From an uncultured Desulfobulbus sp. (GTDB lineage: Bacteria > Desulfobacterota > Desulfobulbia > Desulfobulbales > Desulfobulbaceae), in contig NZ_OY762276.1 in NCBI RefSeq assembly GCF_963665445.1, forward strand, positions 2,617,501 to 2,681,500: DNA of 64,000 nucleotides, given 5' to 3'. Within the stretch, counting starts at the first letter, position 1, and each line of letters begins with the position of its first letter. The position numbers and the translations under genes are program-made. Positions 33,387-59,405 of the stretch are shown here, in pieces. The notes below the pieces were generated by a model, which worked only from the letters and a program-made list of their open reading frames with translations, searched no databases and was not told the origin of the DNA.

Positions 33387-34988
33387 CTAGGGCACCCCAA
33401 TAATAGCAGAGATCACCCTACTATTAAGGGGCTGACTTTGCCGAATGTTTGAGAACGCCTCCCGCAGCACATCTATCCCCAAAGGGTTTTGTTGTAGACT
33501 CTTGCGGATGTCTTTAAGGCGCAACGGTTTATATCTCCGCTTACTGAGAAGCTTTTCGTACCAGGCATCCCGAGTGAGATCGAGCCAAATCTCCGCTATG
33601 GTGTCAAGGTCAGGCCTGTCCTCATCATTTTTTGGAGGGTCGGTAAACTTCAAAATGTCTCCCAATAGCTCTACAGCCTCCCAGTTCTCCTGATTTTGGG
33701 CAGTTTTGACGTAATGGTCCAAAATCAATTTCATTTCCGCCAAGGCCCGTTGTTTCTTTCTTGGCAAAAGAAACCGTTCTGTTGCCAGCACCTGTTCCAA
33801 GAATTTCTCAATCAGCAGTGATGCCTTCGCGTCCATGGTGCGGTTTTCAATATCTCCGGAAAGGACCTCTCGCAACCGGCTTGCTACTTCTTCCAGATGC
33901 GTAAGCGGGTAGGCGGCAGGATGATCAAAAAATATCCATTTGGGAGCACCGTAGTCTGCGCCAAGAATCGCAAAAAAAGCCCATGCTTTTTTTGCTTTGA
34001 CCAAACTCACCGAGGACAAAACTCGAGCTTTTGAATGACGCACCTGGTTGTACACCTCAATAGGCACAATCCCATTTTCAGGGTCAACCAAATCTCTGAC
34101 AGGTTGAAAGGCGTCTTGAATACCATCCCAGCTTGTGCCCTTCTGGTCAAGTTCAGCAAGTTTTGAAACCATCTCTTCAACAGTATCAGGCCCTTCAACT
34201 ATCTCTTCTGGAATGAGATTCTCCGGAAGATCTAGATTTGACCCCAAAATATCGCGAACGTCGGTATAGCGTTGAAAAAACTTCCGGTCTGTTTTCAGGG
34301 CAAAGGCATCGGAGTCAAGCGGCCACCATACCTCTATAGCCTTATGCGGGCTATTCATCCTGTCGACCCGGCCAACCCGCTGCTCTGCCACGCGTATAAC
34401 ACTGGGCATATCGAGGAGTACAACAGCCGAGGCTTGCTGTAAATTTAGCCCTTCCGACATTGCATCCGAGCAGAGAGCTATTACCCCCTCAGCATTGGAG
34501 CCAAGGGAAAAAAGTTTGTTTACCTCTTTTTTACTCTTTACCTGTGAACCCGTTGCCACGATCACCTTGCAGCCAGTATTCTGATGAAAGATAAGCTGTT
34601 TTATGACTTCAAGAGAAATGAGACAGCTGTCAAATGCGAGCAACAAAGGATGTGTTTTTAACAGGTTGCTGAGTTGTTCCGCCTTATATTGTTCTCTGTT
34701 GCCACTGATTCTTTCTATCAGGTCCAATATCCTTTTGTAGATATCTAACTCATCAGAGACGGCCTTTCGGTGTTCATCCGAGTTCGTAAGCCAAACGGGG
34801 AGCTTCTCCTCCAAGGAACTTTGCTTGACCTGTCCTGAAATTTCCTCCAATGTCTTGAGAACATTACCGGTATCTTCGGTTTTGATCCTCGCCTCCAGCT
34901 GAAATCGCTGAGCGGCCTCCGTGGTTCCCAGCAGATGCTCAACCACCGCCGCGCGAGAGGAGCGCAACCTGGACATTAACTGATACAT
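33387..34988 (-). pseudogene. 3' part of a PLD-SNF2 helicase gene split by the Tn3-family transposon
   Basis: This fragment encodes the C-terminal half of the helicase whose first half lies at 57729-59405. It contains the second RecA-like domain: VIVATGSQVKSKKE, SDAMSEGLNLQQASAVVLLD, motif VI QRVGRVDRMNSP, then a long helical C-terminal region. Removing the transposon and one 6-bp duplication joins GLAMY to QLMSRLR with no frame change, for an intact protein of about 1,090 residues. The ATG at 34988 is inside the junction, so the fragment on its own is unlikely to make a useful protein. Confidence 0.9.
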
Positions 34989-35030
34989 GGGTCATCTTAC
35001 ATAAAGGTACGTAACGCGACATAGGAATTG
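34989..35030 (+). repeat. Left terminal inverted repeat of the Tn3-family transposon
   Basis: 42 bp beginning GGGTCATCTTAC, exactly the inverse of 57687-57728. Its outer edge abuts ATACAT, the duplicated target. Confidence 0.95.
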
Positions 35031-35091
35031 TTTGAATCTCTTTGAGCGTCACTTCTTTCGTAGTTTCATCACTCCTAAAGCTTAGAGGCAG

Positions 35092-38000
35092 TTATGCTGC
35101 AAGTTTTGTGGAGAGAATCCCTACACTATCTTGAAGTTTTTCGTCTGAGAAATCGTATTCACCGAGAAGGTTGAGATGCCGCCAGGCGACCACGGAGTGA
35201 GTGCGAATGGCCGTCAAAATATGGTCTTTGTCCTCCTGAGTTTCGGCTTGGGCAAGTTTATGAGAGAGGTAGAGATAGTTCCAGCAAATAATGCAGTTCT
35301 TGATTAGACGGTTGCAGGCCTCGGCAATTTCCTGCTCTTCTTTTTCAGCCTGGGCATATTCCCTGGGGCTGCCGACTGCAACCGCACGCGTTAAGCGATT
35401 GGCCAGTTCAACTTTGTTTAACTGTTTTTCAATTGCCTGACGCAGCTCGAGTTCATCAAGGTAGCGCAGGATGAACAGCGTTTTGATGATCTGCCCAAAG
35501 GCCTTCATAGCCTTGTAGAGCGCATGCTGTTTGGAGTATGAATTTAGACGGCGAAATATATCGGATGCCGTCGTTTCCTTGAGTTTTATGGTCACGATCA
35601 GGCGCAAAAAGTCATCCCAGTTATCTTCAATAATTCGCTCCGCGACATAATTGTCCGGAGTAATTTTCCAGTCAGACTGGTCATCATTTTTATGAGATTT
35701 GAAGATGTAAAGCTGTTGCTTCTTCAGGTTCTTAATACGGGGAGCATATGAAAAGCCAAGCAGATGAGTAGCTGCAAAGATAGCTTCGCTGTAGCCATGA
35801 GTGTCTGTGGAATGAATATCGCTTTTCACCACATCGTTACGCATGAGACCGTCAATAACATAAGCACTTTCACGTTCCGCCGCGCTGAAGACGAGGGAAT
35901 GCCAGAGCAGATTACGCTCATCGATGAAGGAATAGGCGCTGACGCCCTGGCCTTTACCAAAATATTTGAAAGAATAATTGGCGTTGAGCGAATCCCTGCG
36001 CACTTCGAATTTTTGTCCGTCACTGGCGGTGTGTAGTTTATCCTGATCCTTCTGGTAAATTTTTGGTAGGTCCATCCCGTCCATATCTTTGATAACACGG
36101 TCATTTGCAGCTTGAAGATTGTCGAGAGATAAATACCAGTTGACTGCATGAACGAGTTCGTTTTCCGTAATCTGTGAGGAAATCCGACCCATTTTATGAA
36201 TGCCTATCCCGCAGCCAAGTGCCATCACGCCGGCAATAAGAGAACGAGGAGAAACGGTATTTCGCACATGGCGCTGCTGCCAATGTTGCAATTCATCAAG
36301 AAAGCCGCAATGACTGTTGATGGTGGCCAAAACCTCTGTGAGCGGAACGTAGTGTCGTTCGGGAAAAAGAGCCTGCAACGGGTCGGCATCTTTGCTTCCA
36401 AGCGCCGGAGTCGCTATCTGAAACTGACCATTGGCCAATATTTTCAGATGCGGATTTTCCCCTGCATTGATGTGTGCATTGGTGATTTGATATTGCTCGG
36501 AAAGGGCTTTATCCAAGCCATGCATGACCATTTTAGGATCAACAAAATCTAACAAGTCAGCCTGTTTCAGTAAATCTTCTTTGTTGTGATCCCAACGATC
36601 CTTGTCGATCAAATAATCATCAAGGGGACGGTACTTGTAAGAGTGCTCCAGGTTCAGATTACCGGATTTTATGCCACTGGCCGTATGCATGAACAAAAAT
36701 GCCTTGTAGAGCGAAGTTCTGAATTTTTCATTCTTCCCGGTCAATACAGCCTGGCGTTCTTGGAGCTCAAGGAAATCCAGCGGTGCGGCAGATGTAATGA
36801 CACCGCCTGATACTTTGAAATATTCGATGGCCTCCCTCAGCATTGTCGATCCCGGCTGGGCCTTAAAGTCCAGGGCTTTCAGTATTGGCGACACCCGGCT
36901 TTGCAACCTCAGTGAGCGGGCTTCAAGAACATCAAAATAGTCCTCATCACTCAGCTCATTTTCCAGGCCAGCCGTCAATCCCGCCAGTTCATTATCCTTG
37001 CCTACCGCCAACAACATGCGAATGTTACCAATTTTATCGGTATCGCTCAGTCGGGAATTTTCAGTGACTTCCCGGATTTGTCGTAAAATATCAAACACCT
37101 CGCCATCAAGACGTGACAGAAGGCCGGAAAGTGTTTGATTCCGGTTCGCGCGCTGGCCGTAAATCCTTTCTTTATGCTCTCGTTGTGCAGAACTTTGAAA
37201 GGACTTGATGACGCTGAGCAGAACATCAACCAGATTGTCGTGTAATCGGTAGTATTGATGAGCGACAAAAGCACTGACGTGAACAAAACGGTCCTCATCA
37301 GAACGCTGATTCAGCTGGAATATTTGTGACTTTATAACGCTGCCAGCGTAATATCGGATCCCCTCATGCGTTAAGTTCATCGCTTTCAAAACCGGGGTAA
37401 GATGCGTATGAAGTTCTGTGAGCTCAGCGAGGTCTTCGATACTCTTCCGGATCCTGGTAGGCCTAGTCGATTGCGAAAGCTTTTTGAGTAATGTCAGCCT
37501 GTAACGAACTGTCTTTCCTGAAGGTGAACTTATGTTCTCTGGTGCGGCTTCCACCTCTTCTTCATTTGCTTTGTCGTCTGCGTTTTGAACAAAAAGTCCT
37601 TCCAAAAGTTCCCTTGTATGAGGCGTCAATTGTTGTTCGATGATGGCTGACAAATCCCTTTTCCACCGATTGAGCACCGTCAAAATGAGTTCAGCTAGAG
37701 GGTGATAGCCTGGCAACTGGATGCGCTGGGAGATAATTCGGTCAACGCATCGAAAAAAAATAAGCTTGGGTTTGAGCTGGGATTGCGCCATGCCGGAGAT
37801 CTCAGTGACGACAAATTTCTCGGCGTCATCGTCGAACCGTCTGAACCCGTAGAATTCTAAGATCATAAGTTCATGCCGCTGCCGGGTTCGATTGGCATAA
37901 GCTTCTGCACTGAAACTGCCATGTTGCATATCCAGACAGCGCTCCACATAATCAATATCGCGCTGGTGATAGTCCTTCGGCGAAAAGAACCTTTTTGCCG

Positions 38001-38181
38001 CTTTGAAATACCCGCAAGAGACTAAAAAACCAACCTGATGAGCCCGTTTACGAAAATTTTGAGCTGTTTCAAGCAAGGGTTTTGAAAACTCGAAAAATTG
38101 TTCCCTCTGGCGAGCATCAAAGACTGGAGGCTTATCGAACTGTTCCAGTTCGGTTGCGCTTAAAATGCGCATCCTTGGCAT
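35092..38181 (-). CDS. tnpA: Tn3-family transposase TnpA
   Basis: 1,029-residue transposase that acts on the 42-bp ends by the replicative Tn3 pathway. The N terminus carries a DUF4158 region (ILSATELEQFDKPPVFDARQRE, then FLVSCGYFKAAKRFF). The C-terminal DDE_Tnp_Tn3 domain has SDIHSTDTHGYSEAIFA (Asp), LLGFSYAPRIKNL and, toward the end, the expected Glu region around IICWNYLYLS. I chose the ATG at 38181, preceded by GAGGGGG; the frame extends to 38232. Length is normal and the frame unbroken, so the element may be mobile. Confidence 0.94.
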   Translation of the reverse strand: MPRMRILSATELEQFDKPPVFDARQREQFFEFSKPLLETAQNFRKRAHQVGFLVSCGYFKAAKRFFSPKDYHQRDIDYVERCLDMQHGSFSAEAYANRTRQRHELMILEFYGFRRFDDDAEKFVVTEISGMAQSQLKPKLIFFRCVDRIISQRIQLPGYHPLAELILTVLNRWKRDLSAIIEQQLTPHTRELLEGLFVQNADDKANEEEVEAAPENISSPSGKTVRYRLTLLKKLSQSTRPTRIRKSIEDLAELTELHTHLTPVLKAMNLTHEGIRYYAGSVIKSQIFQLNQRSDEDRFVHVSAFVAHQYYRLHDNLVDVLLSVIKSFQSSAQREHKERIYGQRANRNQTLSGLLSRLDGEVFDILRQIREVTENSRLSDTDKIGNIRMLLAVGKDNELAGLTAGLENELSDEDYFDVLEARSLRLQSRVSPILKALDFKAQPGSTMLREAIEYFKVSGGVITSAAPLDFLELQERQAVLTGKNEKFRTSLYKAFLFMHTASGIKSGNLNLEHSYKYRPLDDYLIDKDRWDHNKEDLLKQADLLDFVDPKMVMHGLDKALSEQYQITNAHINAGENPHLKILANGQFQIATPALGSKDADPLQALFPERHYVPLTEVLATINSHCGFLDELQHWQQRHVRNTVSPRSLIAGVMALGCGIGIHKMGRISSQITENELVHAVNWYLSLDNLQAANDRVIKDMDGMDLPKIYQKDQDKLHTASDGQKFEVRRDSLNANYSFKYFGKGQGVSAYSFIDERNLLWHSLVFSAAERESAYVIDGLMRNDVVKSDIHSTDTHGYSEAIFAATHLLGFSYAPRIKNLKKQQLYIFKSHKNDDQSDWKITPDNYVAERIIEDNWDDFLRLIVTIKLKETTASDIFRRLNSYSKQHALYKAMKAFGQIIKTLFILRYLDELELRQAIEKQLNKVELANRLTRAVAVGSPREYAQAEKEEQEIAEACNRLIKNCIICWNYLYLSHKLAQAETQEDKDHILTAIRTHSVVAWRHLNLLGEYDFSDEKLQDSVGILSTKLAA

Positions 38182-38370
38182 AGTTTCCCCCTCTGACCAG
38201 CCATCTAATCCCCAAACCATCGTCTTGAGCAATAGATGCAGTCATGGAACTGATTTTTGCTAAATCATGTAGTATGGAAAAATCAAATCATGAATCGATC
38301 CAATAGAGATGAACTGAGAAAAATTGAATAGCAATAAACAAACGCCTACCCCTCCAGGTTCCAGTGTTGA

Positions 38371-39366
38371 TCACTCCTTTTGACTCTCTGCAGCTGATTT
38401 ATTGCGTTTTTCTTCTATTTGATATTGAAAAGGATAAGGAGCCTGTAACTCCCTGTTGACTGGAAGTCCGGTCGATTTTGCATCCTGCAGGCTGGAAAAA
38501 TCACTCAACAACGGATCTGTGTCACGGAGCGTTTTACGAACATTGACCGGCCCTGCCCATAACACATACTGTTCATTATATTCGGACTCCGCAGCCGCTG
38601 ATTGAGGCGGCATCAGCAATTCCCCCGACCAGTGGTCCACGGCGAGGACTTCAAGTGAAGTCTTGGCCTGAAGAATCTCGTTGTTTGCCAGTAACCAATC
38701 AACTCGGGTATACACGGTCCCAAAGACATCCACGGTGATATACACATCTACTTCTGCTTCGGATGGCGGCACGATGTACACACCTTGAAGATAGAGGTAG
38801 GTTTGCATCAAGGCAGTGAGATACTGAAGGTCGTTGGAAGTGATCTCCTCCGAATTGTGAAACGCGCCCATGCCCTCGTAGGCCACTCCTGCCTGAATGG
38901 TTGTCGCATTCCCTTCCTGCCGGGTCTTCTTGGAAATGGGGGAATTGAGCAGGGATTCCGAGGTCTGGGTTGCGGTCGTCGTGGACGATCCGGTTGTCGA
39001 GGTGGAGGAAGATGTGGTCGGGTATCGGGGGTAAACAGATGTTTCTGTCACAGGAGCGGTCTGGATGTAATCCCCACGCAATTGGGAGACAATTGAAAAC
39101 CGGCCACCGGTGAGGTTACCCGCCCCGGTATCTCCGATGGCATTGACGAACAGGTTGACCTTTCTTCCTTTGATTTTCGTGAGATCAATCTTTTTAATCG
39201 CTGCCCGTGTGGCTGCAGCGACCAATTCCTGTTCAACGGCAAAGCGCTTGCCACCACCATGGCCTGGAATGCCGGTCAATGCGCCACAGCCGGTCAGGGC
39301 CAGCAGAATAAAGGCTATGAAGAGTAAATGAAGGGTCGTTGTTGTAGAGGTCACAGATGTATCCAT
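38371..39366 (-). CDS. Lipoprotein of the type I secretion locus
   Basis: 331-residue predicted lipoprotein with a signal peptide and lipobox (LALTGC, Cys near residue 27). A Thr/Ser-rich low-complexity stretch near residues 112-140 (TTSSSTSTTGSSTTT) interrupts two mixed alpha/beta parts. I do not recognise it with certainty; lipoproteins of similar layout (possibly DUF6655) occur near RTX exporters. It starts 13 bp after hlyD, so it is probably co-transcribed. It may take part in outer-membrane retention or release of the RTX protein; no TolC homologue is present in the window. Confidence 0.7.
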   Translation of the reverse strand: MDTSVTSTTTTLHLLFIAFILLALTGCGALTGIPGHGGGKRFAVEQELVAAATRAAIKKIDLTKIKGRKVNLFVNAIGDTGAGNLTGGRFSIVSQLRGDYIQTAPVTETSVYPRYPTTSSSTSTTGSSTTTATQTSESLLNSPISKKTRQEGNATTIQAGVAYEGMGAFHNSEEITSNDLQYLTALMQTYLYLQGVYIVPPSEAEVDVYITVDVFGTVYTRVDWLLANNEILQAKTSLEVLAVDHWSGELLMPPQSAAAESEYNEQYVLWAGPVNVRKTLRDTDPLLSDFSSLQDAKSTGLPVNRELQAPYPFQYQIEEKRNKSAAESQKE

Positions 39367-39379: not shown

Positions 39380-40735
39380 TTATGGTTCTCGCAGACTTTC
39401 ATCCAATACCCGGATGATGGGGTACAAGAAGTAGGAAATAACCGACCGCTGACCAACCTTGATTTCTGCCCGAACCTTCATCCCCGGTATGAGTCGGAAT
39501 CCCTCAGGCACATTGCGCAGCTGGGTGGAGAGAAGGCTTATCCTGGTCCGGTAAAAGGCCTCGACGGATTCCTGCCCGGGCTCGGGCTTGAGAAGCGCTT
39601 TGGGATCGCCACGTTGAAAGGCGTTTTCACTGATAACCCGTACCGCCCCGGGAAGGGTATCGTGGCGCTGAAAGGGGAAGGCATCAAACTTGATCCGGAC
39701 CGCGTCGCCCGTTCGAATACGACCGATATCCTTGGAGCCGACATTGACCTCCGCTTCAAGCACACTCCCATAGGGAACAAGGATGAAAAATGGTTCGGCC
39801 TGCTGAAGGATCGAGCCCACCGAACGCTCGGCCATTTTGAGGACAATGCCCTTTTCCGGAGCCCGCAGGGAGATCAAGTCATGCACCCGTTCAGCTTTAT
39901 GCAATTCCTCCAGAACTTTTTCCAGCTCAGCCCGTAGGGTGACCTCTTGTTCCATGAGCTCGCCCTTGCGCTCCTCGACAAACCGCTGCCAGTCGGATTC
40001 AGCCTGATGAAGTTCGTTACGGGTCACCAGTGCTTCCGCCTGCAGGGTTTCAATGGCATTTGAGGCCTGAAACCGGGCTTTTTGGGCATCCAGCAACCGC
40101 AAACGGTATTCCTCATCCTGCTGCGGACGTTTGGCGGCTGTTCCTTCCACATCGCGCAGCAATTTATGCTGCTGCTCCTGGCCACGCCTTTGCACAGCAT
40201 TCAGCGCCAGCTTGGCCCGCAGTGCCGCAATTTTGTCATCGGTCAACCGCTTGTTCTTTTCCAGGATCAACCGCCGTTGCAGCAATACCTGCTCCTGGAG
40301 CTTGCCGTCTTCCCCCTCGTTGGGCTTGGCTACAAAAGGTTTGTGGTCCAATTCCGCATTGATTCGCCTGATCTGAACTCCAAGAGTCACCTTCTGTTTG
40401 TTCAATTGGCTCAAGTCGGCGGTCGCAAAGGTAGGATCCAGGGTGGCCAATATTTGGTCTTTCTCCACTACATCGCCCACCTGTACCTTGATGGTACGGA
40501 TTACGGCAGTGCTAAGTGATTGCACCACAATAGTCGGTGTATTGGTGATCAATTCTCCCTCGGCAACCACAATCCGGTCCACCTTGAACACAATGGCGCC
40601 AATGACGATGAGGATCAGGGAGATTATAATGAGATAGAGCACCCACCGGATTTTTCCGGGTACAGGCCGCTCTTCGATCTCCACCGCATCCGGTTGATAC
40701 TCGAGAATATCTTTTTTTTGATTCGATCCTTTCAT
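39380..40735 (-). CDS. HlyD-family membrane fusion protein
   Basis: 451-residue periplasmic adaptor of a type I secretion system. One membrane helix near residues 34-53 (YLIIISLILIVIGAIVF), a lipoyl half-motif (IRTIKVQVGDVVEKDQILATLDP), a long coiled coil (residues about 110-280) and a second lipoyl/beta-barrel part (LRAPEKGIVLKM, SVLEAEVNVGSKDIGRI) are seen in the HlyD order. I chose the ATG at 40735 because it shares a base with the hlyB stop codon (TAATG), so the two are translationally coupled. Confidence 0.94.
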   Translation of the reverse strand: MKGSNQKKDILEYQPDAVEIEERPVPGKIRWVLYLIIISLILIVIGAIVFKVDRIVVAEGELITNTPTIVVQSLSTAVIRTIKVQVGDVVEKDQILATLDPTFATADLSQLNKQKVTLGVQIRRINAELDHKPFVAKPNEGEDGKLQEQVLLQRRLILEKNKRLTDDKIAALRAKLALNAVQRRGQEQQHKLLRDVEGTAAKRPQQDEEYRLRLLDAQKARFQASNAIETLQAEALVTRNELHQAESDWQRFVEERKGELMEQEVTLRAELEKVLEELHKAERVHDLISLRAPEKGIVLKMAERSVGSILQQAEPFFILVPYGSVLEAEVNVGSKDIGRIRTGDAVRIKFDAFPFQRHDTLPGAVRVISENAFQRGDPKALLKPEPGQESVEAFYRTRISLLSTQLRNVPEGFRLIPGMKVRAEIKVGQRSVISYFLYPIIRVLDESLREP

Positions 40736-43281
40736 TACAATTCCATCTGTTGTTCCCAGAGTTTCTTGTAGAGCGGGCAATCCTGCAGGAGCCGCTGGTG
40801 CGGACCATGGCCAACCACCACCCCGCGATGGAGGACGATAATGCTGTCCGCATCCTTGAGCATGGAGAGCCGATGAGAGACAATGAGTACGGTGCGGTTC
40901 TTGGCGATCTGCACCAGGTTTTCGCGTATGATCCGTTCGCTTTCCGGATCCAGGGCACTGGTTGCCTCATCGAGGATAAGAATGTCAGGTGAGGTCAATA
41001 AAGCACGGGCTATGGCCAGGCGTTGACGCTGACCACCGGAAAGGTTCTTTGCACCTTCCTCCAGCATGGTGTCATACCCTTGCGGCAGGGTGACGATGAA
41101 CTCGTCGGCTCCTGCCATGAGGGCCGCCTGGATTATCTGTTCACGGGATGCTGCGGATTGCCCGGCACGGATGTTCTCTGCAACCGTGGCCCGAAAAAGG
41201 AAACTCTCCTGCAGCACCACGCCCATGTTCTGGCGTAAATGGGCGGTATCGATTTCATTGAGGTAGCAGTCATTGATCCTGATCGTGCCGGTTGAAGGGA
41301 AATAGGCCTTTTGCAGCATGCGGGTCAGGGTGGTCTTGCCGGAACCGGAAGGGCCGACAATGCCCAGGGTGGAGCCACTGGCAATGGTCATGGAAATTTC
41401 CTGCAGCACATTGGGCAGGTCAGGGCCATAGCGGAAACTGACCCTATCGAGAACGATATCGCCCCGCAACGAGGGCCGGGCACCATGGCGATCCGCCCCC
41501 CATTCCTGTTTGGCATTCATCACCAGTCCCAACTTTTCCACGGACAGGGCTGCCTCCTGGTATTGATGAATCAGACCAACCAGCCGCACAAGAGGCGAGG
41601 TGACTCGGCCAGCCAACATCTGGAAAGCGATCAGCGCACCCACGGTTATGCTCCCGTCAAAAACCAGGCTGGCCCCCATCCAGATAAGAATGACGGTCAT
41701 CATCCGTTCCAGGAATTGGGTCAGTGATTTGGCAGTAATCGAGATCTTGCCGACCCGGAATTGCATACTGACCGCGCGGGCCACCTTTTGCTCCCATTGC
41801 TGACGCAGCAAGGGCTCGATAGCCATGGCCTTGACCGTGGCCATGCCGTTGATGGTTTCCACCAGCATGGCCTGCCGCTGCCCTTCAGCCTCGTAGAGGG
41901 CGTTCAACCGTCGTTTGAACGGCACGATCAACACGCCGATGACCGTGGCGATCAACAGGGTGAAGACCAAAACGATGCCGGTGAGTGACAGGCTGTAGAA
42001 GAAGAGAAAAGGGAGAAAGACGAAGAGCGAACTCGCCTCCAGCATGGTGAGAAAGACATTGCCGGTGAGAAAGTTACGGATTTTTGCGGTTTGCTGCATA
42101 TGTTGGGTGAGGACACCGGCTGCCACATGCTCAAAGAAATCAAGCGGCAATTGCAGCAGATGCCGAAAGGTTCTCCCGGTGACGCGCAGATCGATTTTGT
42201 TGGTGGCATGAAGCAGGAGATAGTCGCGAAGGAAATCAAGCCCCGCATTCACCGCCAGCGCAGCGGCCATGCCGCAGCCCAGGGCATGCAAGGTGGTGAA
42301 GGCCTGGTTAACCAGAACCTTATCAATCACGATCTGAAAAAAGATCGGGGTGACCAGGGCGATGGCATTGATGAACAACACCGCCAGGGCGATATCGATA
42401 AAGGTCAGCTTCTGGCGGAGGATCTCGGGAATGAACCAGCGGAGGCTGAAGGGTTGGGACTCGTCGGTCAGCTTATACACCCGCTTGAGCACATACAGCT
42501 CACCGTCCCAGATGGTTTCGAACTCTTCGCGGGAGAGGCGGAGGTGGCTGCCACCGGCCCCGGCCAGCGGGTCATAGCAGGCGATCTGTATTGTATTTCC
42601 TTTGGGGTCGGCTTGCATTCCGGCCAGGACCACATGATGACCATTTTTGAGCCGGGCAATGGCCGGATAGGCCTTTTTCAGCTGAAGCAGTTCCTCCCAA
42701 TTCAAGCGCAACAATTTCGCCTTCAGCCCAAGTTCCTTGGCCATGCGCAGCAAGGTATCGGCAGGGATTTCGTTCTTGCTGAGACCATATTCATGAACCA
42801 AACGATCCTGGGTCAATTCTATTTTGTGTTCCCGTGCAACAATTGAGAAGCAGACCAGTGCGGTGTTGACCTGCTCGAAAGAGAGTATGCCACCGGCCCA
42901 GGCCTGGAGGAACCGTTGGAGCGGGACCTGTTCGTTTCGAGGGGGGCCGTCGCTTTGGGGTATTTGCAGGGTAACGGTTTTTGTCGTCTGCAGCTGAATA
43001 TCAGCAAGGATGACATATCGACCGTCCCGCAATTCCGCAATAACCGGCAGGGAGGGGATTTGGTTTAACGCGGGCCGCTGGATGATGGTTTGCAGCCCCA
43101 GGGAACGCGCCGTTTGCATGACGCGCTCGAGATTAAGTTTACGGCCTTCCGGTCCGGAAGCCGGTGTGATTGAGGCAAAGGGTGCGTCAACCTCTTCGCC
43201 AAAGCGCATCGCCAGCAGGTGGCAGCAGGCGAGGAAGTTGCCGTGGTGTTCGGTGGGTTCTTCTGATGTTTGATCCGACAT
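40735..43281 (-). CDS. HlyB-family type I secretion ABC transporter with two peptidase-like domains
   Basis: 848 residues, longer than the usual 700 or so. The extra length is a second N-terminal C39-like domain. By eye, both copies (about residues 12-140 and 145-275) lack a Cys at the catalytic position, so they look like CLD-type docking domains. The membrane domain follows (six helices, about 290-560), then the ATPase with Walker A VGPSGSGKTT, signature LSGGQRQRLAIARALL, Walker B ILILDEATSALD and the H-loop SHRLS. It should export the lipase-RTX protein with HlyD and an outer-membrane channel encoded elsewhere. Confidence 0.93.
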   Translation of the reverse strand: MSDQTSEEPTEHHGNFLACCHLLAMRFGEEVDAPFASITPASGPEGRKLNLERVMQTARSLGLQTIIQRPALNQIPSLPVIAELRDGRYVILADIQLQTTKTVTLQIPQSDGPPRNEQVPLQRFLQAWAGGILSFEQVNTALVCFSIVAREHKIELTQDRLVHEYGLSKNEIPADTLLRMAKELGLKAKLLRLNWEELLQLKKAYPAIARLKNGHHVVLAGMQADPKGNTIQIACYDPLAGAGGSHLRLSREEFETIWDGELYVLKRVYKLTDESQPFSLRWFIPEILRQKLTFIDIALAVLFINAIALVTPIFFQIVIDKVLVNQAFTTLHALGCGMAAALAVNAGLDFLRDYLLLHATNKIDLRVTGRTFRHLLQLPLDFFEHVAAGVLTQHMQQTAKIRNFLTGNVFLTMLEASSLFVFLPFLFFYSLSLTGIVLVFTLLIATVIGVLIVPFKRRLNALYEAEGQRQAMLVETINGMATVKAMAIEPLLRQQWEQKVARAVSMQFRVGKISITAKSLTQFLERMMTVILIWMGASLVFDGSITVGALIAFQMLAGRVTSPLVRLVGLIHQYQEAALSVEKLGLVMNAKQEWGADRHGARPSLRGDIVLDRVSFRYGPDLPNVLQEISMTIASGSTLGIVGPSGSGKTTLTRMLQKAYFPSTGTIRINDCYLNEIDTAHLRQNMGVVLQESFLFRATVAENIRAGQSAASREQIIQAALMAGADEFIVTLPQGYDTMLEEGAKNLSGGQRQRLAIARALLTSPDILILDEATSALDPESERIIRENLVQIAKNRTVLIVSHRLSMLKDADSIIVLHRGVVVGHGPHQRLLQDCPLYKKLWEQQMEL

Positions 43282-50867: not shown

Positions 50868-51024
50868 GTAAGCGATCACGGGGCACCGAATCTGCGGTGT
50901 TATCGGCCTGTTTACGTACAGATGTACGCTGCACAGACCGATGCCTTGCATCTCCGGCCCCCCATAATCGCTTACAAATTCAGGGGTAACCGATAATTAT
51001 TGGGCTCACCCCATGATCGGTTAC
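50868..51024. mobile_element. 157-bp IS66-like mini-element or remnant splitting the lipase-RTX gene
   Basis: The segment starts GTAAGCGATCACGGGG and ends in the complement of GTAACCGATCATGGGG, so its ends are related inverted repeats and resemble the ends of the IS66-type element at 53145. It is flanked by a perfect 8-bp repeat CTTCAAAG (50860-50867 and 51025-51032). Two further end-like sequences meet inside it (complement of GTAAGCGATTATGGG ending at 50975, and GTAACCGAT from 50986), as if a nested element had decayed. Insert plus one duplication is 165 bp, a multiple of three, with a single in-frame TGA. Confidence 0.82.
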
Positions 51025-52374
51025 CTTCAAAGTATCATTTCCGTCCATACCGTACAGGTGATCAATTTCATCTTCACCTTCCAATAATTCTCCTTCAAGA
51101 TTTCCAAAAAGATATTGACTATCGTCTTGAAAACTCATCATTCCGTTATCAACGGTACGAGAAATACCAAGGCGGTAATCAACAAAATCTATATCTGGAT
51201 CAAAATTCGAGACAGTTTCGTTAGGATGGGCAATGTAATATAAAAATTTAGCTCGATCCTCGATGTATTTATCAGAATAGTATTCTTCATCAATATCTGA
51301 ATATCCTGGTTGGTCTCCAGATATTGAAAAGCAAGACAGTTCATTTAGTGCAAAAATAACAGAATTGTCATTTTTTGAGTCGACAATTAACATTGAAACA
51401 GATTTGTCAGATAGTGATGTAACTGACAAGTTCGAAATACCATTATTGTTAACATATGCTGTCAGTTCTAACGCTAAATCGACAGGATCTTGCATTGTGT
51501 CCGCATGAGCCTGAAATATATCATTTACGATGACCAAGACTCTGGCATCAGACATGCATTCCATAAAAGATGAAAACAGATCAACTTCGTCGGTACATGT
51601 AATTGTTGAAAATAAATTGTATATGGCCAACGTAGATGTTAATTGAACAATACTGTGAGCTGGAAGTACAGATTTGTTATCTACAGATATAACGATTGGC
51701 TGAGAAATTGATAACCCTACCGAAGAAACAGCATCACCTGTCGCGACTATGTTGGAAATCGGTAAAATATCAGGAATATTTATCGCGCTATCTGGTGAGA
51801 GCGCAGAAGATATGGCCTCAAGAATATTTCCGCCAACACCAGTTACCCCAGGCGCATTATAAATATATGTTTCAGATATTTTTTCAGAATATTCAAGCGC
51901 CAAATTAGTTGCCAGAAAACCACCAAGCGAGTGCCCGCATACCGAGAAATCGGACCTGAGAGTACCATCGTCGATCCATTTCTGTACCTGTGCTGAAAGC
52001 GCTGCGTATTGACCCTGGAATTCACTCGTGCCAAGCAGGAGAATATCAATAACATCTGTTGCAATGTCATCAAGATCGCTCAACTCAGTTCCTCGAACTG
52101 CAACAACTTGCTCTCCAGATATATTTTCAAAAATGGTTACAGATAATCCTGTATTTTTTTGCCCCAGGTACTCATGCCCAAATTCATCAATGTATGTATA
52201 ATCAACCATACCGTCATATCGAACTACAACATTCCAGGTATCGGCAAATACTTGTGACTGGGCAAGAGTCATACCTATATTTTTAAGTTTATCAATATCT
52301 GGTTTTCCAGTTTTTAGATCAGCATATGCAGCTAATGAAAGCTCAGAATATAAAAAATAATTATTGATACTCAT
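50980..52374 (-). CDS. N-terminal lipase part of the split lipase-RTX protein
   Basis: 464 codons, of which the first 450 are original. An alpha/beta-hydrolase domain of the class 3 lipase kind is visible: VAVRGTE near residues 92-98 and the nucleophile elbow GHSLGG at 147-152, with Ser149 as the likely nucleophile. The first RTX-type repeat starts near the end (LYGMDGNDTLK). The last 14 residues (VTDHGVSPIIIGYP) and the TGA come from the 157-bp insertion. As it stands the product has no secretion signal, so it would stay inside the cell. The ATG overlaps the stop of the upstream membrane protein. Confidence 0.85.
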   Translation of the reverse strand: MSINNYFLYSELSLAAYADLKTGKPDIDKLKNIGMTLAQSQVFADTWNVVVRYDGMVDYTYIDEFGHEYLGQKNTGLSVTIFENISGEQVVAVRGTELSDLDDIATDVIDILLLGTSEFQGQYAALSAQVQKWIDDGTLRSDFSVCGHSLGGFLATNLALEYSEKISETYIYNAPGVTGVGGNILEAISSALSPDSAINIPDILPISNIVATGDAVSSVGLSISQPIVISVDNKSVLPAHSIVQLTSTLAIYNLFSTITCTDEVDLFSSFMECMSDARVLVIVNDIFQAHADTMQDPVDLALELTAYVNNNGISNLSVTSLSDKSVSMLIVDSKNDNSVIFALNELSCFSISGDQPGYSDIDEEYYSDKYIEDRAKFLYYIAHPNETVSNFDPDIDFVDYRLGISRTVDNGMMSFQDDSQYLFGNLEGELLEGEDEIDHLYGMDGNDTLKVTDHGVSPIIIGYP

Positions 52375-52946
52375 TTTTTATCCCCTTCAGATTTAACGAA
52401 GATAGATTTTAAAAATTTATTAGTTCCGGCATCATTAGGGCAGGAATAGCTAGATCCATGCCAAAAACCTGGCAAATCTCCGCCTATGCGAACATAATAA
52501 ATCAATTCACCTAACAATTTTTCATCAGTATTGCGAATTATTGAATAATGAGAACGAATGATCTTTGGGTTTTTTTCTCGCAAATATATTTCTTTCCAAG
52601 AAAATTTATAGTTAGATCCTAATGCTAGTTCTTTCATGCTTGGATGATAAAATTTAACCAGTCCCCATTTATCGAATTGATCTTCAGGCAATTTCTCCGT
52701 TTCGTAAATTTTTTCACCTCCATCCTGCGCACACATTTCCCTTACCCTGGCGTCCCAATACATTTTTTTTCCTGTGACCTGCCAGAATGGACCTCCGAAC
52801 CATACCGAAAACAACATGACCCCAACGCCAATATAAAGTGATTTTTCAAATAAACCAGCTGGTTGCCATAGTCTACAAAGACGATAGATCACCCAGCCAA
52901 AAAACAGCCAAATAGCAATCAGCGCCAAAAGATATATCCCACTCAT
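52371..52946 (-). CDS. Small membrane protein encoded upstream of the lipase
   Basis: 191 residues with two membrane helices near the N terminus (IYLLALIAIWLFFGWVIYRL and LYIGVGVMLFSVWFGGPFW) and a C-terminal domain of about 130 residues. I do not recognise the family. I chose the ATG at 52946, preceded by GAGGAAT; the open frame runs to 53033 without a better start. Its stop overlaps the lipase ATG (ATGA), so it is co-translated with the lipase and could be a chaperone or protector for it. That is inference from position. Confidence 0.7.
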   Translation of the reverse strand: MSGIYLLALIAIWLFFGWVIYRLCRLWQPAGLFEKSLYIGVGVMLFSVWFGGPFWQVTGKKMYWDARVREMCAQDGGEKIYETEKLPEDQFDKWGLVKFYHPSMKELALGSNYKFSWKEIYLREKNPKIIRSHYSIIRNTDEKLLGELIYYVRIGGDLPGFWHGSSYSCPNDAGTNKFLKSIFVKSEGDKK

Positions 52947-53209
52947 ATGAAATTCCTCATATCTTACTTGCTCGAATCCATTTGATTTGACGAAAATCCT
53001 ATTCCCCGTATCTGTATCTCCAATTATTTGCAAGAATTATTTCCTTACCATTTTATCTGTTTTTTTAACAAAATTGACACATTCCTTTCGTTGCAATGGC
53101 TTTAGAGGAATCCTTGCTCTGTGAGGATTAAGAAAAATTTATTCGTAACCGATCAGGGGAGACTAATTTTTCACTGGCGTCGTAAGCCAGCATTTGCTAC
53201 GGTGCTGTT

Positions 53210-54088
53210 ATGGAAACCACAGCGCCTATGTACAAAATTCGGGGTCGCCACCTCAACCAGCATGACCTAGCCGAAATCCGTGAGTTCGTTACCGACCATT
53301 GGGATACTGGTCGCACGGCGATCTCGAAAATTCTCTGCCAGCGGTGGCAGTGGCGGCAGCCAAACGGCCAGTTGAAGGATATGGCCTGCCGGAGCCTCCT
53401 GCTCACCTTGGAGAAAAAAGGCGAACTCATTTTGCCGCCTCGGATGAAGGAGACCTATCGTTTCCCTCGTCGGGCAGATCGCCGTACCTATGCAATTGAC
53501 ACCACGGAAATGGCTGGTCCTGTTTCCGCGTTTGGCTCTTTGACAATCAAGATGGTTCGCCAAAGCCCTGATGAGGGGGTATGGGATTACCTGATTGACC
53601 GCTATCATTATCTGGGCGCCCCCTGGATCGTCGGTTCGTCGCTGAAATATCTCGCCTACCTGGACGATCGCCTGGTTGCCTGTCTTGGTTGGGGCTCCGC
53701 TGCCTGGAAGATAGCCTCTCGCGATCAGTTGATCGGTTGGAACCATGAGCAGCGAGAGCGCAACCTGTCTCAAGTGGTGAACAACGTTCGTTTCCTTATC
53801 CTGCCTTGGGTCAACGTTCAGCACCTGGCATCTAAGGTGCTCGCCTTGAACATCCGCCAGTTGGAACGGGATTGGTTCGCCTTTTACCGGGAACCCATCT
53901 GTCTGCTGGAGACCTTTGTAGAGACCGGGCGTTTTAAGGGGACCTGTTACCGGGCCGCCAACTGGGCCAAGGTGGGAGAAACCACCGGTCGTGGTAAATA
54001 TGACCGCCACTGCCAACGAAGCGAGCCGGTAAAGGCTGTCTTCCTCTACCCGTTGAACACACAATTCAGGGAGCTACTTCGTGGCTAA
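53210..54088 (+). CDS. DruA-like DUF4338 protein of the IS66-type element
   Basis: 292 residues. The N-terminal 90 residues form a DNA-binding-like helical region (HDLAEIREFVTDHWDTGRTAISKILCQRW). The DUF4338 core has WDYLIDRYHYLGAPWIVGSSLKY, LACLGWGSAAWK in similar form, NNVRFLILPWVNVQHLASKVLAL and, at the end, a Lys-rich stretch. This domain defines DruA of the Druantia anti-phage system, but here it is inside an insertion sequence and overlaps tnpC by 8 bp. I read it as a transposition partner of TnpC, with defence unproven. Confidence 0.85.
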   Translation: METTAPMYKIRGRHLNQHDLAEIREFVTDHWDTGRTAISKILCQRWQWRQPNGQLKDMACRSLLLTLEKKGELILPPRMKETYRFPRRADRRTYAIDTTEMAGPVSAFGSLTIKMVRQSPDEGVWDYLIDRYHYLGAPWIVGSSLKYLAYLDDRLVACLGWGSAAWKIASRDQLIGWNHEQRERNLSQVVNNVRFLILPWVNVQHLASKVLALNIRQLERDWFAFYREPICLLETFVETGRFKGTCYRAANWAKVGETTGRGKYDRHCQRSEPVKAVFLYPLNTQFRELLRG

Positions 54089-55493
54089 GGAATATACGCC
54101 CCTGGATCTCCAGATCAGCGATGCCGAGTTAGAGCGACTGCCACCTTCGGCTCTCCGCCTGATTATCCGCAAACTCCTGGAGCATATCGCCCGCCAAGAT
54201 CAACGCATCAAAGAGCTGGAGACTGAAGTCAGCCAGCTCAAGGCCAGGCTTGACCAGAATTCGTCCAATTCTAATAAGCCGCCGTCAACAGATTCGCCCT
54301 ACAAGGAAAATGCACCAAAAACCAACAAGGCAAAATCCGGTGGGCGTAAGGGGCACAAAGGACACCGTCAGCAACTCATACCGCCGACTAAAACAGAAAT
54401 CGTGCACCCCGGTCGGTGCACCTGCGGTTGCCGGACGTTTACCGAGCTCCGTCCTTACCACACCCATCAGCATATTGAGCTGCCCGAAATAGCGATGACG
54501 GTCATCCATTTTATCCTTTATCGCGGCAAGTGCAGCAAATGCGGAAAAACGGGTAAAGGGCACACACCAAAAAGATTTCAAACCGGCTTTGGCCCCAGGC
54601 TCTGTGCACTGGTGGCCGAAATCGGCGGTATCGAAGGCAACAGCCGGCAGGCTATTCAGTCTTTTTGCTCCTCGGTCCTGGGTATCAGTATCAGCCTTGG
54701 AGCAATTCAGAATATTATCGACCGGGCCTCCAGCGCTATCCAGCCTCATTATGAGGCGATCGGCGAGAAAGCGCATGCCGCCAGGGTAAACCATGTTGAC
54801 GAAACCCCATGGAAAAACAACGGCAAGCTCAACTGGCTCTGGGTAATGGCCAGTTCGGTGGTCGCCTATTTCATGGTCCACACCCATCGCTCCAAGGATG
54901 CTTTTGAATCCTTGGTCGGAGGCTGGGAAGGCATCCTGGTCAGTGACGGCTATCGATTGTACCAAAACTGGGTGCATGCCCGCCAAACCTGCCTGGCCCA
55001 CCTGATCCGCCGGGCCAAGGGATTGGCCGAGCGCAAAGATCCGGAGCTTGTTCAATGTGGAACTTGGGCCCGAGATGAACTGCGCCGCCTCTGCAGGATG
55101 GCTAAGGATCCACCGACAAAAGCTGAGTGGCACGCATTTTACGCCCGGCTCAACCGGTTGATCGCGCTGTATATCGATTCCGACAGCGAAGCGGGGAAGC
55201 TTGTCCGCCATATCGACACGGAAATGGGCTCGCTTTTTACCTTCTTGCTTGAGGAGGGCGTTGACCCGACCAACAATTTCGGAGAACGGATGCTGCGCTA
55301 TGCCGTGCTCTGGAGAAAACGCAGCCAGGGGACCAGCAGCGACAAAGGCAACCGCTGGGTGGAACGCATCGTTTCGCTCAGGCAAACCTGCCGCTTGCAG
55401 GGTAAGTCATCCTTTCACGTCCTCGTTGACGCGATGGATGCATTCTTCAAAGATCAACAACCTGACCTGGAGTGGATCAGGTCGGCGACTTGA
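54081..55493 (+). CDS. IS66-type transposase TnpC
   Basis: 470-residue DDE transposase starting at a GTG within the DruA-like gene. An N-terminal coiled coil (IARQDQRIKELETEVSQLKARLDQ region) and SNSNKPPSTDSPY are followed by an IS66 zinc-binding domain (CTCGCRTF, CSKCGKTGKG). The catalytic core has Asp in VDETPW, Asp in VSDGYRLY and Glu in NNFGERMLRY. The frame is unbroken. Only about 55% of the layout resembles the shorter TnpC at 28 kb, so the two elements are of different subgroups. Confidence 0.92.
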   Translation: MAKEYTPLDLQISDAELERLPPSALRLIIRKLLEHIARQDQRIKELETEVSQLKARLDQNSSNSNKPPSTDSPYKENAPKTNKAKSGGRKGHKGHRQQLIPPTKTEIVHPGRCTCGCRTFTELRPYHTHQHIELPEIAMTVIHFILYRGKCSKCGKTGKGHTPKRFQTGFGPRLCALVAEIGGIEGNSRQAIQSFCSSVLGISISLGAIQNIIDRASSAIQPHYEAIGEKAHAARVNHVDETPWKNNGKLNWLWVMASSVVAYFMVHTHRSKDAFESLVGGWEGILVSDGYRLYQNWVHARQTCLAHLIRRAKGLAERKDPELVQCGTWARDELRRLCRMAKDPPTKAEWHAFYARLNRLIALYIDSDSEAGKLVRHIDTEMGSLFTFLLEEGVDPTNNFGERMLRYAVLWRKRSQGTSSDKGNRWVERIVSLRQTCRLQGKSSFHVLVDAMDAFFKDQQPDLEWIRSAT

Positions 55494-55523
55494 GGGGTAC
55501 CCCCTGATCGGTTACATTTATTC

Positions 55524-55748
55524 CCTTGGCGTTAGGATATATTGTGACATTTGGTTCAGTTAATTTGGGTCATTCGTCTCTTGGTTGAACTTACCAGATC
55601 AGATTATAGAGTCCAATTAAAGTATACCCTAACCTGACGTCAGGTTTTCGCCTTAATTCTGTCAGAATAGAATTGTATTTTTATTTTATTGACACTTTAG
55701 TGGCGAAGCCTTAGATTTCAACCTGACACTATAGATGCAGGAGGAGGT
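55524..55748 (+). promoter_or_regulatory. Resolution-site region and tnpR promoter
   Basis: A perfect 16-bp palindrome AACCTGACGTCAGGTT lies at 55631-55646 and a matching half-site AACCTGAC at 55720-55727, a layout expected for resolvase binding sites. A good promoter overlaps it: TTGACA at 55689-55694, 17 bp, then TAGATT at 55712-55717. GAGGAGG lies just before the resolvase ATG at 55749. The resolvase probably represses its own gene by binding here. Confidence 0.75.
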
Positions 55749-56306
55749 ATGCGGGGACATAGGATTGGTTACATTCGAGTGAGTAGCTATGATCAGAATC
55801 CAGATCGACAACTGGAGGACGTATCAACAGACAAGGTCTTTATCGATAAAGCGTCAGGGAAAGACGTTCACCGGCCTAGACTTGAGGAGCTTTTATCTTT
55901 TGTGCGGGAAGGTGACACAGTCGTGGTGCACAGCATGGATCGCCTCGCTCGCAACCTGGATGACTTGCGTCGATTGGTCCAGAATCTGACCCAACGTGGA
56001 ATTCGTATCGAATTCGTGAAAGAACACCTGGCGTTTACTGGCGAGGATTCGCCAATGGCAAATCTGATGTTATCCGTGATGGGGGCCTTTGCCGAATTTG
56101 AGCGGGCGCTTATTCGCGAAAGACAGCGTGAAGGAATAGCGTTGGCAAAACAGCGAGGTGCTTACAGGGGCCGGAAAAAGGTTCTAACTCCAAAACAATC
56201 AGAACAGATAAGGCAACGAGCGGCTGCAGGCGAGTCCAAAGCAAAATTGGCCCGTGAGTATGGGATTAGTCGCGAGACGGTTTATCAATACCTCAGAGAC
56301 AACTAG
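55749..56306 (+). CDS. tnpR: Serine resolvase of the Tn3-family transposon
   Basis: 185-residue serine recombinase that resolves the cointegrates made by TnpA. The catalytic Ser lies in IGYIRVSSYDQN, the Arg pair in HSMDRLARNLDDL, followed by the long helix (FAEFERALIRERQREGIALAKQRGAYRGRKK). The C-terminal helix-turn-helix is AKLAREYGISRETVYQYL. It stands next to palindromic sites and about 17 kb from tnpA, an unusual separation for a Tn3 element. Confidence 0.95.
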   Translation: MRGHRIGYIRVSSYDQNPDRQLEDVSTDKVFIDKASGKDVHRPRLEELLSFVREGDTVVVHSMDRLARNLDDLRRLVQNLTQRGIRIEFVKEHLAFTGEDSPMANLMLSVMGAFAEFERALIRERQREGIALAKQRGAYRGRKKVLTPKQSEQIRQRAAAGESKAKLAREYGISRETVYQYLRDN

Positions 56307-56332
56307 CAGTATATTATATATAGGAGACAATC

Positions 56333-56989
56333 GTGCTGCTCGGTAGCTCAACAAAATACGGTGCCGGATTGAGGCTTGCTGGTGACCACACAGATCTTTG
56401 TGACCTCTACGAAACAATCCACTACTTTGTTCCCGAAAATGGGCTGATCCCTCCGCACCATGACGAATTTGTTTTGGGGTTGGCTTATGACGTTCGCCAT
56501 GCGTACCAGGGGGACCGTGATACTCAGCTCATCAATAATCCGAACGGGAGCTCCATCTACTTCGCTGTCGACATCCTATGGCCTATTTTTTTGGTTCAAG
56601 TAGCTATGCTTCGAGCGATAGCAGCATACTTGCCGACAACGAGGTCTCATCAAGCAACCCTGTACAGGATTGAGGCGTGCATTGAAAGCGCTATGAACGC
56701 CATCGATGCCAATGTTTCACGCAAATGCTGCGACTGGCTCCATGATTTTTCTCCCCTTCCGGAAGGGTACCTGATGAGCTTTGTTTCCCAGCAGTCCAAG
56801 CTCTATGTTCTGGCCGCAACCACAGCTAAGTCTCGCCTTCGCAAACTGCCAGAAATCATCAGCGACATTTCACCTTACTCTCCTGCATACAAGGAGTATG
56901 AGACAGAATTGAGGACCATTGCGGAACAACAGAAGTGCAGCCCAGATGATCTCCATGATGATTCCGAATGGCCAAAATTCAAATGGTAA
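56333..56989 (+). CDS. Unrecognised protein after the resolvase, possibly DUF6904-like
   Basis: 218 residues from a GTG at 56333 preceded by GGAGA. Visible features are GDHTDLCDLYETIHYFV near the N terminus and VLGLAYDVRHAYQGDRD near residues 45-63, which recall the pattern of DUF6904 proteins; I am not certain. The remainder is helical, with no membrane segment or signal peptide. It begins 26 bp after tnpR in the same direction and may be co-transcribed, as a passenger of the transposon. Confidence 0.65.
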   Translation: MLLGSSTKYGAGLRLAGDHTDLCDLYETIHYFVPENGLIPPHHDEFVLGLAYDVRHAYQGDRDTQLINNPNGSSIYFAVDILWPIFLVQVAMLRAIAAYLPTTRSHQATLYRIEACIESAMNAIDANVSRKCCDWLHDFSPLPEGYLMSFVSQQSKLYVLAATTAKSRLRKLPEIISDISPYSPAYKEYETELRTIAEQQKCSPDDLHDDSEWPKFKW

Positions 56990-57112: not shown

Positions 57113-57382
57113 TTAGGAGCATGGGCCGTTACGTGTAAAGGTTACATACGCCCATATAGCTCGTGCATAATCGGGATTTTCATAATGTTTTTCCATTTCA
57201 GACGGTTTTGGAGCACTCCTTCCCTCTTCAGACAGAATCTCCAGGTGGGAAGCAATGGCTTCTTGAGTATTGCTTAGAGCTTCATCAATGGTTTCTCCGG
57301 CTGAAAAGCATCCGGGAATATCGGGAACCGATACACCAAAACAAGAGCCCTGATCTTTATGTATTGCGACGGGATATTTCAT
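57113..57382 (-). CDS. HicB-like antitoxin, probably truncated
   Basis: 89 residues. The N-terminal HicB fold is clear: MKYPVAIHKDQGSCFGVSVPDIPGC and AGETIDEALSNTQEAIASHLE. A full HicB usually continues into a DNA-binding ribbon-helix-helix domain, which is absent; the protein ends with TFTRNGPCS. No intact hicA is seen on either side. It is probably a remnant near the right end of the transposon, or a shortened stand-alone relative. Confidence 0.7.
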   Translation of the reverse strand: MKYPVAIHKDQGSCFGVSVPDIPGCFSAGETIDEALSNTQEAIASHLEILSEEGRSAPKPSEMEKHYENPDYARAIWAYVTFTRNGPCS

Positions 57383-57460
57383 TTTTCGGATTTTCCCTCC
57401 CTAATACGGTCTGCACTGCGGCGCTATCTTTTCATTCCCATCTGTCTTTCCTGGCACACT

Positions 57461-57613
57461 AAAAGTGGCAAAAGTCCACGGAATCTCCCTGTACATGGAT
57501 TAAAGAAAACAGAACGATAGAAAAATGGTGCAATTTATTGAAAATATGGAAAATTTTAAACAACACCGAGAACTTTTATGACATCCCGTTAACGGGAAAA
57601 GTGGCAAAAGTCC
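57461..57613. repeat. Two direct repeats and a palindrome near the transposon's right end
   Basis: AAAAGTGGCAAAAGTCC occurs at 57461-57477 and again at 57597-57613. A 12-bp palindrome CCCGTTAACGGG lies at 57585-57596, just before the second copy. They are in non-coding DNA between the hicB-like gene and the right inverted repeat and could be protein-binding sites or scars of recombination. Confidence 0.6.
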
Positions 57614-57686
57614 CGTTGGCATATATAGGAGACTACTTTAACCCGGTTGCTCAACAAAATTCGGAACGAGAGTTAAGGCTTTCTCG

Positions 57687-57728
57687 CAATTCCTATGTCG
57701 CGTTACGTACCTTTATGTAAGATGACCC
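57687..57728 (-). repeat. Right terminal inverted repeat of the Tn3-family transposon
   Basis: 42 bp ending GTAAGATGACCC, the exact inverse of 34989-35030. ATACAT follows it directly and matches the bases before the left end. Confidence 0.95.
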
Positions 57729-59405
57729 ATACATTGCCAGGCCTTTGGCCCCGTGCAATCTTCCCTTGATAAATCGGTCATCATCAACCTTTAAACCTTC
57801 CGGACGCTCAACGGCGGATTGCAGGTTGATAAGCCCTTTCAATTTGCCTGCAAGCTTCCTGATTTCCTCGGCATAACGTTGATCCTGAACGCTTTCGTTT
57901 GTCTCGTAGGTTTGGGGTGTGTGCTCCGGATAACGGCATTGTTTTCCCCGGTCATCGCAATATGCTTCCGGTTGTTGATCAACCATCGCATTGAACATGT
58001 TTTTTGTGCGACGTAGCGTAAACCGCTGCACGGCCTTTTGCATTTTCTGCCGTTCTGCCTTATTTGCCACCAATTGTCCATTCGACCGTCGAATACGCTG
58101 CTCAAGACGTTCGAACAGCTTCAAGGAATCATCGTCGAGATTATCCGCGCCCAGTAGGTCGACAATTCGCAAAAGGTCTCGTACCCCTTTATTGATGGGA
58201 GTGGCGGTAAACATCACCATGACATCCGCCATATTTCCCAATAAACCACGCGTCCTGGAAGAGGTCGGATTGAGAAAATTATGGGCCTCGTCCACTGCAA
58301 GCGATTGGGCTCTTCGGACCGTCTTGAGGATCTCCTTATGCTTCTCCGATTTTTCGTAGCTGAGAATCCCATGTGAGAGGACGGACAAAGGCAACCCGCA
58401 CTCGACGGCTTCTTTCTTCCAGGCGTCTTTGACAAAATTTGGCGGACAAACCAGGGCAGTTATATCCTTTCTCACTCTTCCAGTGCTCCAAATCCGATCC
58501 ATAACCGAGCGCAACAAATGTGCGCCCATCCGGGTCTTTCCCGAACCGGTGGCATCGGCAACCAGTACACTCCCTACATTTTCAACCATCCAAAGAGCCT
58601 GGGCAATACCGGTTTTCTGAGATGGCCAGAGCTCATTGCCACTGCTGACACATTTGTTTTTTATGTACCGTTGTGCCCATTCTCCTTCAAGAAGCTCACC
58701 ACAGGCACGACCTAAGGCATCCTCCCAGGACACCACCTGCATAAGTTGTTGAAGTAGATCAAGTAATTCCTGATTATAATCCTCACCCAACTCCCAGTAA
58801 TTTTTTGCTATCTGTTCGACTTCGCGGTATCTCTTTGGCTCCTTTTGAGCATCGAATCGAACATTCGCCTCCAATTGCCTTTGAAACCCCATAAAAGAAA
58901 AATTACTGGAACCAAGGGTTGCCGCTGATTCAGCAAGAAAGATCTTGGCATGCAGTTTGTTTTTCTCATCGGGGATATACCTACTTACAATCCTGCCGTT
59001 CTCGATCATCTCTTTGAACAAGAGGATCTTGTTGCACAAACGCAATGAAATGCCCGCTTCCAGCCAATAATCGACGACATCTTGGGGGAAGTTCGATTTT
59101 TTCAGGCTGTATTCCTTGCGCCTGGCAGGACTCGGTTCAGTGCCGAAAAGAATGGAAATCGACTCGGGCTGTTCACTGTTCAAGCTAGCTACAAAATCGA
59201 TCAGATAATCAAGAGAGGTAAAACCGGTGATGATGAGGGGAGAGGTACTTGCTCGAATATCGTTAAGAACAATGTCTTCAACCTTATTCTTAGCGAAATT
59301 TAATGGAAACCGCTGTTGTTCCGGCCAATCGGTAATTTTGCGGAGCTTGGCCGACCGAACCACTTGCGGTTCAAATAATCCTAATTGAGGCGTGAGTGGG
59401 GGCAC
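57729..59405 (-). pseudogene. 5' part of the PLD-SNF2 helicase gene split by the transposon
   Basis: 559 original codons from the ATG at 59405; the reading frame now runs 11 codons into the transposon end and stops at 57693. The N-terminal 200 residues contain one PLD-type motif (LHAKIFLAESAATLGSSNFS: His, Lys, then Ser-Asn), as in PLD-family nucleases. A SNF2-type helicase domain follows: Walker A ADATGSGKT, DEAH-like VDEAHNFLNP and FTATPIN. The matching second half is at 33387-34988. It lies 69 bp after the UvrD-like gene and was probably the third gene of that operon. The truncated product lacks the second RecA-like lobe. Confidence 0.92.

Follow-up and report, generated by a model that had tools for sequence, protein, structure and literature searches.

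Tn3-family transposons usually carry their res site between the transposase and resolvase genes, and the target duplication that flanks them is usually 5 bp long. An excerpt of PMC7157771 gives terminal repeats of 38-40 bp or longer as usual for the family and places most passenger genes away from the transposition module. Duplications of 6 bp have also been published: an excerpt of PMC3281130 describes them for Tn5393, Tn3434a and Tn6122 (Paracoccus), in each case at AT-rich targets. For the Tn3-derived TIME elements, an excerpt of PMC4133298 reports 5 or 6 bp, every 6-bp case lying at one site, and it gives 5 bp for two autonomous Tn3-family transposons.

Here we analysed a window of 64,000 nucleotides, the whole stretch of DNA to which all coordinates refer unless a genome is named. 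We consider it very likely that a Tn3-family unit transposon was inserted here, by means of its own transposase, into an intact PLD-SNF2 helicase gene of about 1090 aa. The locus illustrates cleanly how a large Tn3-family element can break a helicase gene among defence-type genes and bring along a type I export locus. As the disruption of a single gene the event is ordinary, whereas the position of the cargo is unusual.

Ends, transposition genes and target duplication

The element occupies positions 34989-57728 (22,740 bp) and is bounded by 42-bp terminal inverted repeats at 34989-35030 (plus strand) and 57687-57728 (minus strand). These are complementary at 42 of 42 positions, or at 44 of 44 if the outer AT, which is itself part of the flanking repeat, is included; by chance, about 1e-16 such inverted-end pairs would be expected in 64 kb. 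Directly outside lie the two copies of the 6-bp target duplication ATACAT, at 34983-34988 and 57729-57734. The 22.7-kb element with perfect 42-bp inverted repeats and a 6-bp flanking repeat, as described in a first-pass annotation of this DNA, is thereby confirmed. An assembly artefact at the join appears highly improbable: a false join would not create a matching 6-bp repeat together with perfect inverted ends at both junctions, and the contig is a single one of 5.08 Mb.

The assignment to the Tn3 family, likewise made in the first-pass annotation, holds as well. The transposase gene tnpA (35092-38232, minus strand) has an intact frame whose product scores 653 bits against NF033527 (curated cut-off 500) and matches PF01526 over positions 1-389 of 389. 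At the opposite end, a serine resolvase of 185 aa with PF00239 and HTH_7 matches is encoded at 55749-56306 on the plus strand. Transposase, terminal repeats, a short target duplication and a resolvase gene, four of the features by which the family is recognised, are present, and the 42-bp repeats fall within the length range given in the excerpt of PMC7157771. Upstream of the resolvase gene a perfect 16-bp palindrome is found at 55631-55646, which is possibly part of res. A megablast search of plasmid records with the window tnpA returned no match. Among the 72 other genomes of the window's family, seven contain tnpA matches at E <= 0.001; a near-identical full-length copy is present only in one of them (G037), where it is spread over two frames, and another (G034) holds two more distant relatives with 56% and 47% identity.

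With respect to the length of the duplication, the first-pass annotation had correctly noted 6 bp, yet its description of this length as unusual for Tn3 elements was overstated in view of Tn5393, Tn3434a and Tn6122 as portrayed in the excerpt of PMC3281130. By published description, these three transposons and the TIMEs (5 or 6 bp) share the 6-bp duplication with the window element. A sister element in G037, described below, is flanked by its own 6-bp duplication, CATTCC. Because of this sister and the published Tn3-family cases, the duplication of 6 bp is probably real and not new. That the true duplication measures 5 bp, with the sixth base matching by chance, we regard as unlikely. This reading could draw on the relative carried by plasmid pDFL14-10, whose transposase is 54% identical and which, judged by eye, is flanked by the 5-bp repeat ATCTA (no repeat was seen in this way around the other three plasmid relatives), but it would have to explain why ATACAT and CATTCC both extend over 6 bp, the odds of such a coincidence at both elements being about 1 in 16. 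Moreover, the base adjoining the terminal repeat differs between the window and G037 and is thus not a conserved end base.

The split helicase gene and its uninterrupted relatives

Both halves of the helicase gene are located on the minus strand. The N-terminal half (57693-59405; native codons 57729-59405) encodes a PLD-like domain and an SNF2 N-terminal domain and consists of 559 native codons, followed by 11 codons read out of the terminal repeat. The C-terminal half (33387-34988, 533 codons) encodes the Helicase_C domain, and its first ATG is also its first native codon, situated inside the duplicated 6 bp. Hence, the element has entered the gene between its two helicase lobes, with the SNF2 N-terminal domain on one side and Helicase_C on the other.

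Seven relatives possess an uninterrupted frame across this site. One of them, a protein of 1114 aa with 73% identity to the N-terminal half (L025), is the single relative from a scan of named genomes; the other six stem from a phylum sample of 395 genomes, in which, with no more than two candidates scored in each genome and a threshold of E <= 1e-50, seven genomes matched, namely the window genome with its two halves and these six. The relatives are 34-73% identical to the window halves, the closest intact one reaching 73% for the N-terminal and 65% for the C-terminal half, and one (G292, with a frame of 901 aa) matches from query residue 220 onward only. When each half was aligned separately to the seven relatives, the alignment of the N-terminal half ended at residue 559 in six (the exception being L040, where it stops at residue 532), and that of the C-terminal half started at residue 1 or 2 in all seven. 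Hereby, the two alignments overlap by exactly 6 nt in four of the seven relatives and by 3 nt in two, in which the C-terminal half aligns from residue 2.

Judged from the sequence, the split of the helicase gene is therefore an insertion, since seven relatives are uninterrupted and the halves align up to the site in six of them. This agrees with the earlier proposals that the element sits in a PLD-SNF2 helicase gene and that the halves rejoin in frame. The first-pass annotation had also named homologues ending naturally where each half ends as evidence to the contrary; these were looked for, and the relatives instead run across the site. The two open reading frames might in principle be naturally separate genes that flank a transposon by chance, each half being open and offering a potential start codon. 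Since the relatives are uninterrupted, and the halves meet at the site in six of them with an overlap that comprises one or both of the duplicated codons only, we treat this explanation as refuted and its residual probability as negligible.

All six candidates in the window genome were scored, and no second copy of the N-terminal half was found at E <= 0.001; weak matches to this half (E 7.5e-6 to 8.6e-4) occur in 3 of the 72 other family genomes. One scan of viral contigs yielded no helicase relative, and 41 plasmid records had weak partial matches, with identities of at most 27% among the 25 listed.

Because the insertion cuts between the two lobes, the helicase is most probably inactive. 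Alternatively, the split gene could still work if its halves were expressed separately and then assembled, the C-terminal half being read from transposon transcripts that leave the transposase end. Both halves being open, the ATG of the C-terminal half coinciding with its first native codon and tnpA lying on the same strand as this half would fit such a scheme, but the insertion parts one helicase lobe from the other, and a search of 34950-35400 for promoter-like sites gave none (0 observed, 0.3 expected by chance). We know of no precedent for such an arrangement, and consider continued function very unlikely.

Genomic setting of the insertion

The first-pass annotation had placed the locus on a plasmid. 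This view was not retained: the window falls within one contig of 5,081,812 bp, which has four 16S matches. Plasmid records matched by the 16S included 15 at 81-82% identity and one in the 95-99% band, and a 601-base part of it reached at most the 80-90% band. One spelling of a Desulfobulbaceae probe site gave 0 hits, the 16S containing a one-base variant of it; as both spellings occur in print, no weight is given to this result. Conjugation genes are nevertheless nearby, as a cluster at 5519-22288 (10 ORFs searched) comprises genes for a coupling protein, TrbI, TrbL, a VirB4-like and an ArdC-like protein as well as a weak TrfA match. To the right of the element and on the strand of the helicase, a defence-type gene cluster extends over 59474-64000 and continues beyond the window (L026 and L027), with genes for a UvrD-type helicase, a DruE-like helicase of 2185 aa, an RmrA-like protein, a type IIG fragment and a DrmD-like helicase. 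Since the conjugation genes lie in a contig of chromosome size, they point to a plasmid or conjugative element that has become integrated, and the surroundings are thus probably such an integrated element with a defence-type cluster that was hit by the transposon.

Whether the helicase once belonged to a conserved defence operon was addressed at the loci of the seven intact relatives (7.3-18 kb each, two of them being whole short metagenome-type contigs). The UvrD-type, DruE-like and RmrA-like genes and the type IIG fragment had no tblastn match at E <= 1e-5 at any of these loci, the DrmD-like gene having been left out of the comparison. A conserved operon around the helicase is accordingly not supported.

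The split helicase shares its SNF2-type character and, in part, a PLD-like domain with the anti-phage PLD-helicase, DpdE and DrmD families. Two intact relatives, however, scored only 28-74 bits overall against models of known defence proteins with curated cut-offs of 500-1100. Hereby, 42.2 and 50.7 bits were obtained for the anti-phage PLD-helicase (NF042964, cut-off 1100), 41.5 and 61.3 bits for DrmD of DISARM (NF038317, cut-off 610), and 69.8 and 74 bits for DpdE (NF041062, cut-off 500). With scores this far under the cut-offs and four neighbours unmatched beside the intact relatives, an anti-phage role of the split helicase is only a guess.

Cargo of the element and comparison with related transposons

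Read along the minus strand, the element encodes in order a 220-aa protein (52371-53033), which has no Pfam or PADLOC match and sits in the kilobase of lowest GC content in the window (0.369), a 464-aa protein (50980-52374) with weak lipase-like matches to Abhydrolase_1 and the SA1320 family, both below cut-off, and a protein of 2511 aa with 46 stretches of the RTX repeat PF00353 (43399-50934). These are followed by an HlyB-like type I secretion ABC transporter with a C39-like domain (40735-43281; TIGR01846, 677.5 bits, below the cut-off of 725.55), a type I secretion adaptor of the HlyD family (39380-40780; TIGR01843, 263 bits, above cut-off), a 331-aa protein (38371-39366) with no Pfam, NCBIfam or PADLOC match and, finally, the transposase. 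On the plus strand, toward the right end, lie an IS66-like element, the serine resolvase gene and a gene for a DUF6904 protein (56333-56989). The secretion locus that had been recognised at first reading is thus indeed inside the element, with type I adaptor, ABC transporter and RTX protein; an outer-membrane channel was not recognised among the element ORFs searched. The 2511-aa RTX protein is presumed to be the substrate of the adjoining type I secretion operon. For the 464-aa protein, one strong relative (59% identity, in G009) and weak matches in three further genomes were found among the 72 other family genomes.

Relatives of the exporter occur elsewhere in the same genome. Residues 279-846 of the query are 79% identical to a match at 752047-753750, and the N-terminal part has a 49% match at 747751-748590. 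These two matches lie about 3.5 kb apart, and the region G000:C1:747751-753750 is perhaps an interrupted or rearranged second exporter locus.

The nested IS66-like element (53145-55515, plus strand, 2371 bp) has 15-bp inverted ends, GTAACCGATCAGGGG, and contains a DruA-like gene (PF14236; 53210-54088) and an IS66 transposase gene (54081-55493). An identical second copy is located at G000:C1:3959906-3962276, and each copy is flanked by its own 8-bp target duplication, ATTTATTC in the window and ATACCGAA at the second site. The DruA-like gene and the IS66 transposase gene hence move together as one 2371-bp element. Further copies in the genome are 86% identical at 457195, without a matching duplication, and 85% identical at 711135, broken into two matches. 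As a general pair, DruA and IS66 are not claimed beyond this genome, the pairing being inconsistent in relatives: of five other genome loci with DruA relatives, two have an IS66 match in the fetched flanks (in L067 a C-terminal fragment encoded on the other strand, in L070 a weak match), and none was present within the fetched flanks of a DruA relative in one plasmid. Among the matches listed from the open-licence literature, no paper was found that joins DruA/DUF4338 with IS66 or IS66 with Druantia. Outside the Tn3 element, a second IS66-type transposase is encoded at 27944-29383.

In our preferred reading, the transposase of the element would have moved it into the intact helicase gene by replicative ('paste-and-copy') transposition via a cointegrate, as inferred from the family, and the serine resolvase would then have resolved this cointegrate. 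The type I secretion operon and its presumed RTX substrate would probably have been captured between the transposase and resolvase genes, and the IS66-like element landed beside this cargo. Perfect terminal repeats and two halves that are still open frames suggest that the insertion is recent.

The closest relative of the element is the sister in the same-genus genome G037 (G037:C1:4190992-4215345, 24,354 bp; loci L030 and L028). Its terminal repeats are identical to those of the window at 41 of 42 positions at each end, its transposase end is 94-97% identical, and it likewise has the resolvase gene at the far end, divergent from the transposase gene, with the cargo in between. In contrast to the window tnpA, however, its transposase frame is broken, and instead of an RTX secretion operon it carries a gene whose RHS-repeat product has a transglutaminase-like domain, along with IS21, IS91-type and integrase genes. 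At one end, the homology of the two elements ceases no more than about 35 bp from where the transposase ORF starts; at the other, it ceases about 107 bp from the outer tip. The resolvases are only 36% identical, and for this reason the resolvase of the window may not be the original one of the element.

RTX and RHS elements that share ends and transposase, homology that stops near the transposase start and resolvases that differ could together reflect a Tn3 lineage in which giant exported proteins form an exchangeable cargo placed between transposase and resolvase, its arms being swapped there. We put this forward tentatively, as a rather doubtful reading; such an exchange would have occurred at the res region, going by two elements. 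Should the layout of tnpA, cargo and resolvase turn up in further elements, it would represent a route for Tn3 transposons to swap very large cargo. In the open-licence literature, we found no on-topic report of secretion or RTX cargo in the Tn3 family.

A different layout is seen in the plasmid relatives that were compared, which are the five best hits apart from H3 of Sphingobium: Sulfitobacter pDFL14-10, Roseobacter litoralis pROLI127 and Thiothrix pTfr153 and pTunz1. Like the window element, these four have a divergent recombinase gene and related terminal repeats beginning with GGGT, and their transposases are 43-55% identical to that of the window. In all of them, however, the recombinase gene is adjacent to the divergent transposase gene, with gaps under 220 bp, whereas in the window 17 kb separate the divergent tnpA and resolvase genes, and the type I secretion operon and the RTX protein gene lie in between. 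This position of the cargo is unusual, although the newness of the layout is tempered by the Tn4651-type elements, which reportedly also keep their transposase and recombinase genes apart.
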